The notes under the pieces were generated by a model, which saw only the letters and a list, made by a program, of their open reading frames with translations, was not told where the DNA came from and searched no databases. The position numbers and the translations under genes were made by a program. A DNA stretch of 64,000 nucleotides, from contig OZ017748.1 in the NCBI GenBank assembly GCA_963969365.1, positions 2,663,001 to 2,727,000 of the forward strand. Direction: 5' to 3'. The DNA comes from Asterochloris sp. CNOR1 (Eukaryota > Chlorophyta > Trebouxiophyceae > Trebouxiales > Trebouxiaceae). Shown here piece by piece: positions 11,726 through 16,776 of this stretch (position 1 is the stretch's first letter; every line of letters begins with the position of its first letter).

Positions 11726-11893
11726 GCAGACTTGTTGGTTGCAGGTGTTGGATTACTCGATGCCCCTGTGAGGTTGCTGATATGCTTTGCCGGCAGTTAC
11801 ATTCTGGTTTTGCAGAAGTCAAACAAAAAATCGGTCAATGTTAAGCAGCTGTCCAGAGTTAGCGGGGGCACCTCCGAGGGCGCCCCTGCAGCG

Positions 11894-13177
11894 ATGCCGC
11901 CTCGAGCAGGCCGCAAGGCCGCGCCAGAGGCGTTGACCATGCCTCGAGAGCATAGGCCACGAGCGTCGAAAACGGCTGCCCCCACAGCGTCCGAGCAACT
12001 CAACCCCCCTGAGCTAAATACCATTCATGAAAACGCTGTCAGTCAGGCTGCACCTAGCATGGCAGTAGTGCATGATGTTGCAGAAGGGAGCACTGTAGAT
12101 GTGGAGACTGTAGTTGAGGCTGCAGCGGGGAGCATTGTGCCTGTGGAGGCCGCAGTTAAGGAAGCAGGCGCCAGTGTGGTTGAGGAAGAACTCTCAACAC
12201 CAACAACAACACCGAGCGATGACCGAGGGGAGATCAGCAGCCTGCAGCTGCTGGTCACCCAGCTGCTGCAGCAGAACAACCAGCTGCTGCAGCAGAGCAA
12301 CCAGCAGCAGCAGCAGATCAACCAGCTTATCGCCCAGCGGCAGGCTGACAAGCAGCAGCAGGGTGCTGAGATCCAGCTGCTGAAGCAGCAGCAGACTGCT
12401 GAGATCCAGATGCTGAAGCATGAGGTCGCCAGGCTACGCGACGATGTGGGCAAACGGAGCAGCCACCAGGACCAGGCTGCCAGCTTGGAGAGGGCAAACA
12501 CACAGCTGGCCGCTCTGGGCCGGGACGTTGAACAGCTGCAGAGGCAGCAGCCAAAGCAGGCTCAGCGGACTGGGGTGGAGACCCACACAGCCATACCTGG
12601 GCAGCAGGCCCGCCGAGGCAGCCCAGGCGTGGCTGATGATGCTCATGGAAGTATTGCACATGAGCGTGCCCATAACTTCCTGCTGCACAGATTTCCTGAG
12701 GGTGCAGAGAACGAGCAATGCTTAATGCAGCTTGTGGAGGGTGTTGTGCATGGCGATCTGGGGGTGAAGGGAGTGGACATATTAAGTACCAAGAGGGTCA
12801 ATGGCCAGAATCCAGCCTCCCCGGTGCTTGTGCAGGTTGGTGACGCCGCCCAGTGCATCAAGGTGCTGCGAGCTGCCAGTCAGCTGCGACACAGCACACG
12901 CTACAAAGGAGTGGGCCTCACGCCAGACCTCACAAAGCAGCAACGCGAGCACAAGCAGAAGCAGTGGGGGACGTACCTGTCTCTCAAGAAGCAGGGCTAC
13001 ACAGTGTGCTTCCACGGGGACGCCCTGGTGATGTGGAACAACAAGCAGTGGATGCCTATCCAGCCCCCCACTGGCCCGCCGCCACCGCCGGCGGGGCCAC
13101 CGGCGCAGCCTCCAACCCAGACATCACCTGTGCCACAAGCACAACTGCCTGGGCCACCCTCTGAGAGGGTGGCCTAG
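11894..13177 (+). CDS. LINE ORF1 protein (coiled coil, RNA-binding-like)
   Basis: 427 aa from ATG 11894. An upstream in-frame ATG at 11675 lies inside SEC13 exon 1 antisense and is rejected. The basic N-terminus (MPPRAGRKAAPEALTMPREH) is followed by an acidic stretch and a Q/L heptad-rich coiled coil (about residues 115-215: LQLLVTQLLQQNNQLLQQSN onward). A globular domain follows at about 255-395 (HNFLLHRFPEG ... SPVLVQVGDAAQCIKVLRAA ... GLTPDLTKQQREHKQ), resembling the RRM/CTD part of L1-type ORF1p that binds RNA and traps trimers. A proline-rich tail precedes the TAG. The reading frame continues into ORF2 after that TAG. Confidence 0.8.
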   Translation: MPPRAGRKAAPEALTMPREHRPRASKTAAPTASEQLNPPELNTIHENAVSQAAPSMAVVHDVAEGSTVDVETVVEAAAGSIVPVEAAVKEAGASVVEEELSTPTTTPSDDRGEISSLQLLVTQLLQQNNQLLQQSNQQQQQINQLIAQRQADKQQQGAEIQLLKQQQTAEIQMLKHEVARLRDDVGKRSSHQDQAASLERANTQLAALGRDVEQLQRQQPKQAQRTGVETHTAIPGQQARRGSPGVADDAHGSIAHERAHNFLLHRFPEGAENEQCLMQLVEGVVHGDLGVKGVDILSTKRVNGQNPASPVLVQVGDAAQCIKVLRAASQLRHSTRYKGVGLTPDLTKQQREHKQKQWGTYLSLKKQGYTVCFHGDALVMWNNKQWMPIQPPTGPPPPPAGPPAQPPTQTSPVPQAQLPGPPSERVA

Positions 13178-16100
13178 GAAGAGGGGGGTCACTGCGTTGA
13201 GCTCTCATGTGTTCTCTGGAACATGCATGGCGGGCTCAACCATGCTTATAACAAGGCTGATGCTTTGAATGACCTGCATACTTTGGACTGCACATTTATT
13301 TGTTTGACTGAGACCTGGACTGCGCCTGGGGATGCTGTGTATGACTTGCCAGGCTATGTCTGTCATGAAGTGCACCGTCCCCAGCACCTGCAGAACCGCA
13401 ATGGCCCCAGGGGTGGCATTGCTGTGTACATGAAGCAATGCGTTGCTGACCATGTTAAATTTTGGAAAGCTGCAGATGACGGGACATACATTTGGCTGCA
13501 CATTGAGCCGCATGGCGGTTGTACAGAGCATATTGCCTTTGCCACTTGCTACATGCCTCCTTACTACGCTAACAAAACACTGGACACTTTCCGCAGATTG
13601 ACTGCAGACATGGACAACTTTGCCAGCAGGGTGCCTGCCGGCAAGCAGCCGCACTACTGGGTGTGTGGGGACACCAATGCACACACTGGCACAGCACCAG
13701 ACTTTATCAGACTCATTGGACATGGTATCTCTTCTGAAGTGCAGGCCCTTGACCAGCTTCCAGCTGACCTGAAGACGCGCGCAAACCTCTGCACCCACAA
13801 GGTTGATGTCCGTGGCAAGCAACAGCTGGACTTCTGCAAAGACAACGAGCTGCTCATTCTCAATGGCAGGGCACCTGGCGACCCATCTGGTAAGGTCACA
13901 TTTGTGGGGAGGGGCGCAGGCACCCTCATTGACTACCACATGGCCTCTGCGTGGCTGGCCAGCTGCTGCATGCAGCTGGCGGTGCTGGACATGGCCAGCG
14001 GGGCGTGCCGGGTGTGCTCAGATCACCTGCCGGTTCAGGTCTGCTTCCAGCTGCCCACCACAGATGGGGAACCACCAGCAGCATCAGCACAGCAGCAGCC
14101 AGCTGCAGTCCCGCGCGTACCAGACATCAGACTTGACCCAAGTCAAACAGAGGTCTGGCACCAGAACTTTGCAGCGGTTGCAGAGCGGTTGCGGTTACAA
14201 GTTGCGGTGACAGATCCAGAAGCAGGGGTCAGAGCCTTCACAGAGTGCATTTCAGAAGCGGCCGCAGACACCTTCCAGCTCAGACGACGGCAGCCTTTAA
14301 AAATTATGCAACGCCCACCCTGGTTTGATGAGGAGTGCCGGTATGCTTGGAGGGAATGGAAGGATGCTGAGCGCTCCCCCATTATTGTTCCTTTTGCTGC
14401 TTTGAAGCTTCGCAACATGTACAGGGCAGTGCGCCGCAGGAAGCAGCGACGGTTCATGCACCAAAGGATGGCTGACATCGATAAGCTTGCATCGAAAAAC
14501 ATGGCACATTTATACCGCGTGTTTGGCTGGCGCAGGCACTCAGCTTGCCCCAGGGCGCTGCACAGTCAGCATGCACACTGGCAAAGCAAGCTGGGTGGCC
14601 GCCCAGAGCCACGAGGAATCCCTGAGCTGTTGACAGAGGACTGTCCCGGTGGGCCTGTTCCATCTGCTGCTGCCTTGAATGCACCTATCACCACCCGTGA
14701 GGTTTATGACAGCTTGCAGAAACTGAAGGGGGGCAAAGCAGCAGGGCTTGATGGCATGCCTGCAGAACTGCTCAAGAGTGGCCCCTTCAGCATGATGGAG
14801 TGCCTCGCGAGTCTCTTCACTGCAATCCTGCATGGAAGATATCCAGAGCAGCTGAGCACTGGCCTGATTACTGCAGTTCACAAAAAGGGAGACAAGGCAG
14901 ACCTCAATAACTACCGCCCCATCACAGTCATCCCGGTTCTGGCCAAGCTATTCGCCTCTGTGCTCACGCGCAGACTGGCAGACTGGACTGAGAGGAACAA
15001 TCTCAGGGCGCCCACGCAAGCGGGCTTCCGGGCCAATCGCGGCACATCAGATCAACTGAGTATCTTGAATTACATAGTCAAGAAATGCCTGTCACAGGGG
15101 AAGAAATTGTACTGCTGCTTTGTGGATTTTGAGAAAGCGTTTGACACAGTGGACAGGGAAGTGCTTTGGGCTGTCCTGGCCAACATTGGAGTGCGGGGGC
15201 AGTTCCTGAAGTGTTTGCAGAGCCTCTATGGTGTTGACTCTGCTGCAGTGAGAACTGCACAGGGCACCTCTGGGGCTTTCAGGTGCTTTCAGGGGGTACA
15301 GCAGGGGAGTCCCCTCAGCCCCCTGCTGTTCGGGCTGCTGCTTGACTGCTTGCACAAGGTCCTGAAAGCTGTGCCAGGCAATGGCGCCCCAAGCCTTGCC
15401 GATTACTGGTTCACAGCTGCGGGCCGCGAGTGGAAGATGCAAAAGCCTGTGCCGCTGCTGCTCTACGCAGACGACCTTGCCATACTAAGCACCAGAGCAG
15501 AGGGGCTACAGAACATGCTTGATGCATTGCAGGTCTTTAGCAAGAAGAGGCGCCTCACAGTGAACCTGGAAAAGACTGAGGTGCTGGTCTTTGAGCTGCG
15601 GCACACCCCCTGCCGGGATTTCACATACGGCGGGAGAGTGCTCACCCGCAAGGACAGCTTCAACTATCTGGGCCTGTGGTTCCATGCCACGCAACGGGAC
15701 TTCTGCCTTGCTCTGGGGAGTGTTGCAGCTTCTGCATGCAAAGCCATGCATGCCATGCGCCGCAGATGCTTCCAGCTTGGCTATGTGCACCCCCAGCGCA
15801 TGTGCAACTTGTTCAATGCATTGGTGCTGCCCATCCTCAGCTATGGCTGTGAGGTGTGGTTCTGGCACCATGATGCCAGCAGCACAGTCACCAAAGTGCT
15901 GGAAGGCGTCCACCTCCAGTTCTTACGTGGCCTGCTGGGAGTGAAACGCACCACGCACCACTTGATTGCCCTGGCTGAGTTTGGCAGATACCCGCTTGCT
16001 GTGCATTGGCAAAAACAAGTTGACAAGTTCAGGCTGCGCATCTGCAATGTCACTCGCACTGCATCTGACAACCCACTGTTCTGGGCGATGTTTGACGGCA

Positions 16101-16624
16101 CACCCAATGTGGAAAACCTTAGGCTCCTGCGTACCCCTGCTGGATTTGCTGCCTTGCAGGCCCGCGGGAGGCCTGCCAGCGCCCCCAGCACAGAGCGCCA
16201 TGAGCGGCTCTTTGCGGAGAACTCAGACAGCACCGTGGCAACGTACAAGCAGATGCGCGGCTTCAGCGCAGCGTACACCACGCAACCTTACATCCAGCAG
16301 ATCAGAGGCTACAGACTGCGCAAATCAATGGCCCATATCCGCTGCAGCAGCCACAGGCTGAGAGTTGAGACAGGCCGCTACACATCAGAAGCCAGACACG
16401 AGAGGACCTGCCGCCTCTGCACATCAGCAACCGCCATAGAAGACGAGCAACACATCTTGCTGCACTGTCCCCAGCTCGATGACCTGCGCAACGCCCACAG
16501 CCACCTATTCAAGACGCCAGGACAGACTTTGACAGACCTCTTTGATGACCATCCCCCAATTTTGCTTGCTAAGTATGTGCGTGCAGCGCTGCTTATGCAT
16601 CAATCAGTGCTGCTTTTGCCATGA
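13178..16624 (+). CDS. LINE ORF2 (endonuclease + reverse transcriptase)
   Basis: Target-primed reverse transcription enzyme. From the first ATG (13223) it is 1133 aa. Residue numbers here count from that ATG. The APE-type endonuclease shows TETW (about 31), GDTNAH (about 150) and SDHLPV (about 266). The reverse transcriptase shows NNYRPITVIPVLAKLF (about 562), GVQQGSPLSPLLFGLLLD and YADDLAIL (about 748). A zinc-type motif CRLC ... HILLHC lies near 1063-1080. The catalytic-Asn strand of the endonuclease (CVLWNMHG) straddles the first ATG, and its N is encoded just upstream. The coding frame therefore probably begins before 13223, in the same frame as ORF1 directly after TAG 13175-13177; I give the feature from 13178 for that reason. 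No internal stops. Confidence 0.88.
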   Translation, partial: EEGGHCVELSCVLWNMHGGLNHAYNKADALNDLHTLDCTFICLTETWTAPGDAVYDLPGYVCHEVHRPQHLQNRNGPRGGIAVYMKQCVADHVKFWKAADDGTYIWLHIEPHGGCTEHIAFATCYMPPYYANKTLDTFRRLTADMDNFASRVPAGKQPHYWVCGDTNAHTGTAPDFIRLIGHGISSEVQALDQLPADLKTRANLCTHKVDVRGKQQLDFCKDNELLILNGRAPGDPSGKVTFVGRGAGTLIDYHMASAWLASCCMQLAVLDMASGACRVCSDHLPVQVCFQLPTTDGEPPAASAQQQPAAVPRVPDIRLDPSQTEVWHQNFAAVAERLRLQVAVTDPEAGVRAFTECISEAAADTFQLRRRQPLKIMQRPPWFDEECRYAWREWKDAERSPIIVPFAALKLRNMYRAVRRRKQRRFMHQRMADIDKLASKNMAHLYRVFGWRRHSACPRALHSQHAHWQSKLGGRPEPRGIPELLTEDCPGGPVPSAAALNAPITTREVYDSLQKLKGGKAAGLDGMPAELLKSGPFSMMECLASLFTAILHGRYPEQLSTGLITAVHKKGDKADLNNYRPITVIPVLAKLFASVLTRRLADWTERNNLRAPTQAGFRANRGTSDQLSILNYIVKKCLSQGKKLYCCFVDFEKAFDTVDREVLWAVLANIGVRGQFLKCLQSLYGVDSAAVRTAQGTSGAFRCFQGVQQGSPLSPLLFGLLLDCLHKVLKAVPGNGAPSLADYWFTAAGREWKMQKPVPLLLYADDLAILSTRAEGLQNMLDALQVFSKKRRLTVNLEKTEVLVFELRHTPCRDFTYGGRVLTRKDSFNYLGLWFHATQRDFCLALGSVAASACKAMHAMRRRCFQLGYVHPQRMCNLFNALVLPILSYGCEVWFWHHDASSTVTKVLEGVHLQFLRGLLGVKRTTHHLIALAEFGRYPLAVHWQKQVDKFRLRICNVTRTASDNPLFWAMFDGTPNVENLRLLRTPAGFAALQARGRPASAPSTERHERLFAENSDSTVATYKQMRGFSAAYTTQPYIQQIRGYRLRKSMAHIRCSSHRLRVETGRYTSEARHERTCRLCTSATAIEDEQHILLHCPQLDDLRNAHSHLFKTPGQTLTDLFDDHPPILLAKYVRAALLMHQSVLLLP

Positions 16625-16776
16625 TTACATGAATTGTCAGTCCCATGCCCGTTCATTGTGGCCCCCGGACTTTAAATCCATTTCTCTCTCAGCTTTGCCA
16701 ATCATCATGTCTGCCGCATGACCTTTGCAAGCCACATCTGAGGCCATGTAAAGGTGTCCCCATCAGTACAGAAGCC
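16625..16776. other. LINE 3' tail / dehydrogenase 3' UTR
   Basis: 152 bp between the LINE stop and the convergent dehydrogenase stop. It holds TGTAA on plus (16747-16751) and TGTAA on minus (TTACA at 16625-16629, right after the LINE stop). The two transcripts probably overlap in antisense here. Confidence 0.5.

Follow-up and report, generated by a model that had tools for sequence, protein, structure and literature searches.

An L1-like long interspersed nuclear element (LINE) in the genome of the green alga Asterochloris sp. CNOR1 probably produces its second protein through programmed type III (gammaretrovirus-like) read-through of a UAG stop codon, giving ORF1p together with a minor ORF1-ORF2 fusion. 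The element lies on the positive strand of the window, the stretch of 64,000 nucleotides (nt) of contig OZ017748.1 (positions 2,663,001 to 2,727,000; assembly GCA_963969365.1) that was analysed here, and all features below are on this strand and are numbered by window position. Translation of 11894-16624 gives 427 residues of open reading frame (ORF) 1 (11894 to 13177), a single TAG at 13175-13177 that is the sole stop between the two ORFs, and, without a change of frame, a further 1148 residues up to a TGA at 16622-16624 (ORF2 frame, 13178 to 16624), an arrangement that the first-pass annotation of this DNA had described and that the translation bears out. Read-through is favoured because it accounts for the common frame of the two ORFs, for the lone UAG and the lack of a start codon, and for both the conservation of the codons that follow the stop and the sequence context in which the stop lies.

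Under this model the majority of ribosomes would terminate at the UAG and release ORF1p, while a minority would decode the UAG with an amino acid and continue into ORF2, creating an ORF1-ORF2 fusion in which the endonuclease is intact. Read-through would be aided by the UAG-G-purine-rich context, and the RNA hairpins predicted to flank the stop in families 1 and 2 of the element may perhaps assist it. We infer the read-through event, its efficiency, the role of the hairpins and any later cutting of the fusion from the sequence of the junction. For the wider proposal, that three diverged families of an L1-type lineage obtain their enzyme solely through ORF1-ORF2 fusion and in a fixed proportion to ORF1p, in the manner of Gag-Pol and with no L1-style re-initiation, we consider the chances to be evenly balanced.

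Conservation of the TAG and of the reading frame

The first-pass annotation had held that a sense codon, a frame change or an upstream in-frame ATG for ORF2 in other copies would mark the TAG as a private mutation of the window copy. In other copies (designated by L numbers), the TAG and the frame are kept, with no spacer between the ORFs, in three families, and the conservation counts rule out a private mutation. Because the genome searches score the best candidates only, the copy numbers given here are minimum values. Searching the DNA with 13100-13400 returned 25 matches, comprising 16 places on the strand of the element and nine short reverse matches at the same places. Within family 1, to which the window copy belongs, the TAG is kept in all 15 close copies (window included), seven of which have the full 1148-codon ORF2. 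The TAG is also present in one of two decayed relatives, namely L058 (68% nucleotide identity), which reads WNT instead of WNM, and not in L024. The seven full-length ORF2s (21 pairs) have a ratio of nonsynonymous to synonymous differences per site (pN/pS) of 0.28 with a pS of only 0.0067, and therefore family 1 appears to have spread recently and to have been kept as protein.

Family 2 was found by protein search, its ORF2 being 55% identical to that of the window, and it keeps the TAG at 18 of 19 junctions; the miss, L025, diverges just before the stop. Four full family-2 ORF2s (six pairs) have a pN/pS of 0.52, and in both families ORF2 looks to be under purifying selection. The families are dispersed over many contigs, and ORF1 and ORF2 share one frame in the intact copies of families 1 and 2. 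Setting L025 aside, no sense codon at the stop and no in-frame ATG ahead of the WNM ATG occurs in the junction-bearing copies of these two families; a frame change does occur in L028 (family 2), where ORF1 is shifted by 1 nt at a point ahead of the TAG, with TAG and spacer both intact. Family 3, with an endonuclease 36-38% identical to those of the other families, contributed four junctions from the search (L038, L042, L056 and L057), all from copies decayed in ORF1 or ORF2, and the TAG is kept at all four. ORF1 is in frame to the TAG in L038, L042 and L056, and ORF2 remains in frame for at least 405 codons past the TAG in L038, L056 and L057; the frame of L042 is broken at WN. The ORF1 tails vary among families in length and sequence, and the frame relation is unchanged. 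Altogether, 38 of the 40 junctions examined have a UAG stop, the exceptions being L024 and L025. These counts cover copies that contain the junction; truncated ones, such as L060 and those matched in ORF2 only, were left out together with the partial relative L059.

The start of ORF2

The first in-frame ATG of the window ORF2 is at 13223-13225 and encodes the M of WNMHG, as the first-pass annotation had noted in arguing that a start there would remove a catalytic-type Asn of the endonuclease. The structural comparisons agree with that argument. The codon of this Asn (13220 to 13222) lies directly 5' of the ATG, and in the structural model the first endonuclease strand consists of residues 10-15 of the ORF2 frame, so that a start at 13223 would lose both the Asn and the strand. 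In a four-sequence profile, W14-N15 are aligned with W6-N7 of the AP endonuclease ExoA (whole-sequence E 0.0002), while a phmmer search of the endonuclease against the PDB gave chance matches only. In the fold alignment with the human LINE-1 (L1) endonuclease, the first aligned residue of the model, residue 8, pairs with residue 7, and by gap-free extrapolation N15 would equal N14 of the human enzyme. We take N14 of the human L1 endonuclease and N7 of ExoA to be catalytic.

The distance from the TAG to this Asn is 14 codons in families 1 and 2 and 16 codons in family 3. Codons 1-15 after the TAG, which precede the ATG, look translated because their pN between families 1 and 2 (0.27) is far below their pS (0.84), although RNA structure could explain part of this pattern. 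None of the 34 TAG junctions from family 1, L058 and family 2 has an in-frame ATG before the Asn codon, and 32 of them have no in-frame near-cognate codon before the ATG, the exceptions being L019 (ATT) and L031 (AAG). An in-frame near-cognate start codon was accordingly rejected for families 1 and 2. One or two out-of-frame ATGs precede the WNM ATG in all 34 junctions, the one in the window lying at 13207 to 13209. In family 3, the in-frame ATG and near-cognate codons discussed below lie behind or beside an out-of-frame ATG, and L042 has GTG where the other copies have the in-frame ATG.

Context of the stop codon and predicted RNA structure

Type III read-through motifs, examples of which include those of gammaretroviruses and Tombusviridae, are described as generally combining a UAG with either a G directly 3' of it or a purine-rich octanucleotide, and with RNA structure of some form further 3' (PMC3542737). 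Directly 3' of the stop, family 1 has GAAGAGGG with purine variants, family 2 has GGAGAAGG with one variant, and family 3 has GGGTACRG. In the window, the UAG is followed by eleven purines, G first (13178 to 13188). The base after the TAG is G at all 38 TAG junctions, and the first eight bases are purines throughout (8/8) in the 34 junctions of families 1 and 2 and at six of eight positions in the four of family 3. The families examined thus carry the first two parts of a type III motif, the UAG and the G or purine-rich octanucleotide.

RNA structure is suggestive as a further part of the signal, with predicted support that varies with the stretch chosen. A 13-bp hairpin with the UAG at its 3' foot is predicted at 13149 to 13177, and a second hairpin, beginning 18 nt after the UAG, at 13196 to 13240. 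The family-1 folds have z-scores of -3.7 upstream (13131-13177; 0 of 200 shuffles) and -1.9 downstream (13178-13260; 7 of 200), and the downstream 75 nt of family 2 have a z-score of -2.9. When scored against dinucleotide shuffles, none of 193 family-1 windows has a lower z-score than the 100-nt one that starts at -30 (-5.44), which is one of four windows added at the junction; the grid windows near the junction score -2.75 and -2.93. In family 2, the grid window that starts at -25 comes second among 77 (-3.93). Only 2 of 2000 synonymous shuffles are as stable as the last 20 ORF1 codons, and this count is the same for family 1 and for family 2. For the downstream stretches, picked after the hairpin had been seen, the counts are 18 and 16 of 2000 in families 1 and 2, respectively, and for the first 26 ORF2 codons they are 230 and 78. 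For the family-2 synonymous shuffles, codon usage came from a pool that also included family-1 ORF2, and the ORF2 scan of family 2 covered roughly its first 600 nt. In a stem that joins codons 8-10 to codons 18-20, seven of nine pairs form in family 1, nine in L058 and eight or nine in family 2, compared with two to six pairs when it is slid by 1-3 bases, and the stem shows little covariation. The upstream hairpin would be melted by a ribosome at the stop.

Evidence against read-through and alternative explanations

Several observations weigh against the read-through model or against a role for structure in it. The three families share common ancestry and are therefore not independent origins of the arrangement, and the decayed fragment L024 (77% identity over 124 nt) aligns a TAA with the stop. 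In three of four family-3 copies the 14th codon after the TAG is an in-frame ATG, and near-cognate codons occur in all four, so that the absence of an upstream in-frame ATG, one of the signs named in the first-pass annotation, holds for families 1 and 2 and fails in family 3. The upstream 75 nt of family 2 fold weakly (z -1.4; 20 of 200 dinucleotide shuffles), and the family-3 junction has no unusual structure, its four windows ranking 18, 47, 89 and 115 of 125. In the synonymous scans, family 1 ranks only sixth of 102 for the last 20 ORF1 codons and 54th of 281 for the first 26 ORF2 codons, where family 2 ranks first of 95 and first of 44. L021 and L023 no longer have the upstream hairpin, and single changes weaken it in L010, L015, L017 and L018. 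Of the 12 synonymous sites compared in the first 21 codons, families 1 and 2 agree at six, which is not unusual, as 48% of 769 windows reach this level. A pseudoknot between the hairpin loop and downstream bases is not supported, as its best pairing was reached in 413 of 500 shuffles for family 1 and 364 of 500 for family 2.

The main alternative, which we regard as a real but distinctly minor prospect, is that the ribosome terminates and then re-initiates just after the UAG without an AUG, producing two separate proteins. The first-pass annotation had offered read-through or re-initiation at a non-AUG codon, and both read-through and AUG-independent re-initiation fit the junctions, while re-initiation at an in-frame near-cognate codon fails in 32 of the 34 junctions of families 1 and 2, where out-of-frame ATGs also come first. 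Coupled termination-reinitiation has been described for SART1 and proposed for L1 (PMC5972666). The stable hairpins predicted on either side of the stop could hold a ribosome there, re-initiation would equally predict that the codons immediately 3' of the UAG are conserved in their protein sequence, and the in-frame ATG near the ORF2 start in three of four family-3 copies would suit it. A UGGGA-like motif upstream of the stop that pairs with 18S rRNA is a feature of re-initiation of the termination upstream ribosomal binding site (TURBS) type. In one copy of each of families 1-3, there is neither a stop-start overlap of the SART1 type nor a TGGGA in the last 90 nt of ORF1. Re-initiation also does not require ORF1 and ORF2 to share a frame, yet all three families share it.

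The remaining explanations are far less probable. A start at the WNM ATG (13223) by scanning or internal entry is favoured by the A that families 1 and 2 have at -3 (AACATG), but it is very unlikely given that it would cut off the catalytic-type Asn and first endonuclease strand, that the decayed L058 and also L019 are without this ATG, that out-of-frame ATGs come earlier, and that the codons 5' of it are conserved. Similarly improbable is that ORF2 has an RNA of its own, arising by splicing or, for example, through a promoter within ORF1. A precedent is the gag-UGA-pol junction of the retrotransposon Tca2, reported to give no read-through in yeast and to hold a minor promoter (PMC2194720), but a separate RNA leaves the kept frame, the TAG and the absent spacer in three families unexplained. 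Least credible of all is that this nucleus reads UAG as sense, or that a dedicated UAG suppressor tRNA makes its read-through routine. The other 1575 codons of the window ORF1 and ORF2 include no TAG and 85 CAG, and therefore TAG does not act as an ordinary sense codon in this element. Of the ten TAG-ending window ORFs scanned for domains, one has a domain match, a small sample for TAG as a host stop. Some room for a suppressor is left by the tRNA search, in which 63 of 857 candidates were scored and anticodons were not read.

Relation to known systems

UAG read-through is well known in retroviruses and plant viruses and has already been suggested for LINEs of Paramecium; the new element of the present prediction is its occurrence in L1-type LINEs, for which no report of read-through or of same-frame ORFs was found in the open-licence PubMed Central literature searched. 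One of the closest likenesses to the proposed read-through is murine leukemia virus gag-pol, in which a lone UAG, with a G and a purine-rich stretch after it, likewise divides one frame, and in which the second product carries reverse transcriptase, as here (PMC3542737, PMC5009743). In contrast to the gammaretrovirus, the LINE has its own endonuclease, a pseudoknot was not found, and read-through is a prediction. The replicase of Tombusviridae is described as using a UAG-GGR read-through site with nearby and long-distance structure (PMC3542737), and families 2 and 3 read UAG-GGA and UAG-GGG; however, that protein is a plant-virus replicase with no known relation by descent.

Among LINEs, Group 3 elements of Paramecium have ORF1 and ORF2 in the same frame, as here, and read-through was suggested for them, but they belong to a separate ciliate clade by the authors' tree (PMC5405496). 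Human L1 provides the best fold match for both ORF1p and the endonuclease described here, whereas the ORFs of mammalian L1 are 63 nt apart and an unconventional termination-reinitiation has been proposed for them (PMC5972666). Zepp of Coccomyxa and Zepp-like green-algal elements are also L1-type LINEs (PMC3446292, PMC8226300, PMC11005252); Zepp is reported to form one cluster per chromosome, unlike the dispersed families of Asterochloris. How two-ORF LINEs produce their second protein is a standing question, and if the model is true, elements without long terminal repeats (non-LTR elements) can use programmed stop-codon read-through, following the retroviral Gag-Pol rule. The many near-identical copies and the short junction define a candidate signal of less than 150 nt that is suited to direct reporter use. 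Searches of viral contigs for relatives gave no pattern match with a single protein and 26 pattern matches, none confirmed, with a two-family alignment, and no relatives were found in the phage records searched.

Classification and structure of the element

On domain and fold matches, the element is an L1-like LINE, because it combines reverse transcriptase and endonuclease domains with ORF1p and endonuclease folds closest to those of human L1. ORF2 encodes an N-terminal endonuclease of the apurinic/apyrimidinic endonuclease (APE) type, as expected of an L1-type LINE (13178 to 14047, extent as modelled), a downstream reverse transcriptase (14882 to 15679; RVT_1, E 2.5e-34) and a C-terminal Cys/His motif recognized by eye. 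In PDB searches the reverse transcriptase matched R2 and human L1 ORF2p at similar E-values. The Exo_endo_phos domain is below cut-off in the window ORF2 and above cut-off in families 2 and 3, and the endonuclease model (predicted template modelling score, pTM, 0.72) has the human L1 endonuclease as its best match. ORF1 has no Pfam match above cut-off. Its model (pTM 0.38) contains a long helix, the strand and helix order of an RNA recognition motif (RRM) and a C-terminal part resembling that of L1 ORF1p, and in a comparison with 997 aligned chains the top five rows are all human LINE-1 ORF1p; the model thus suggests the coiled coil, RRM and C-terminal domain of an L1-type ORF1p.

Comparison with other copies places the window element at approximately 11851 to 16690. 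Homology to the fuller copies begins at ~11851, indicating that the window copy is 5'-truncated at about this position. The end of ORF1 given in the first-pass annotation stands, but 11894 is probably not the native start, because L013, L016 and L017 have an in-frame ATG 23 codons 5' of the equivalent position. These copies extend ~110 nt 5' of that upstream ATG, from which the ORF1 of L013 and L017 counts 472 codons. In addition, 66 nt are missing in frame from the window ORF1 at 12187/12188; the seven other copies spanning that site all have them.

The 3' ends of family 1 (16670-16695 in the window, and in other copies) are a variable (CT)n tract and not poly(A). Two of the 15 family-1 copies, L010 (contig C11) and L022 (C17), adjoin at their 3' ends the 5' portion of tRNA sequences that closely resemble each other, with Rfam tRNA matches at these 3' flanks (C11:299375-299446 and C17:754125-754187), and a preference of family 1 for tRNA genes is possible. 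Many of the top tRNA matches crowd on contigs C20 and C21, which may be organelle genomes. L021 and L023 (C4) share a large internal deletion (equivalent to window 13559-15683) and lack a further 12 nt ahead of the stop, a pattern that would fit mobilization in trans, or duplication, of a defective copy. Six loci under strong RVT_1 matches (L032-L037) are Ty3/gypsy-like by eye and not LINEs; in L032 and L033, gag ends in TAG and pol is in another frame. Similar RVT_1 matches are clustered on several contigs, for example at C2:2275091-2294600 and C4:3178206-3197888.

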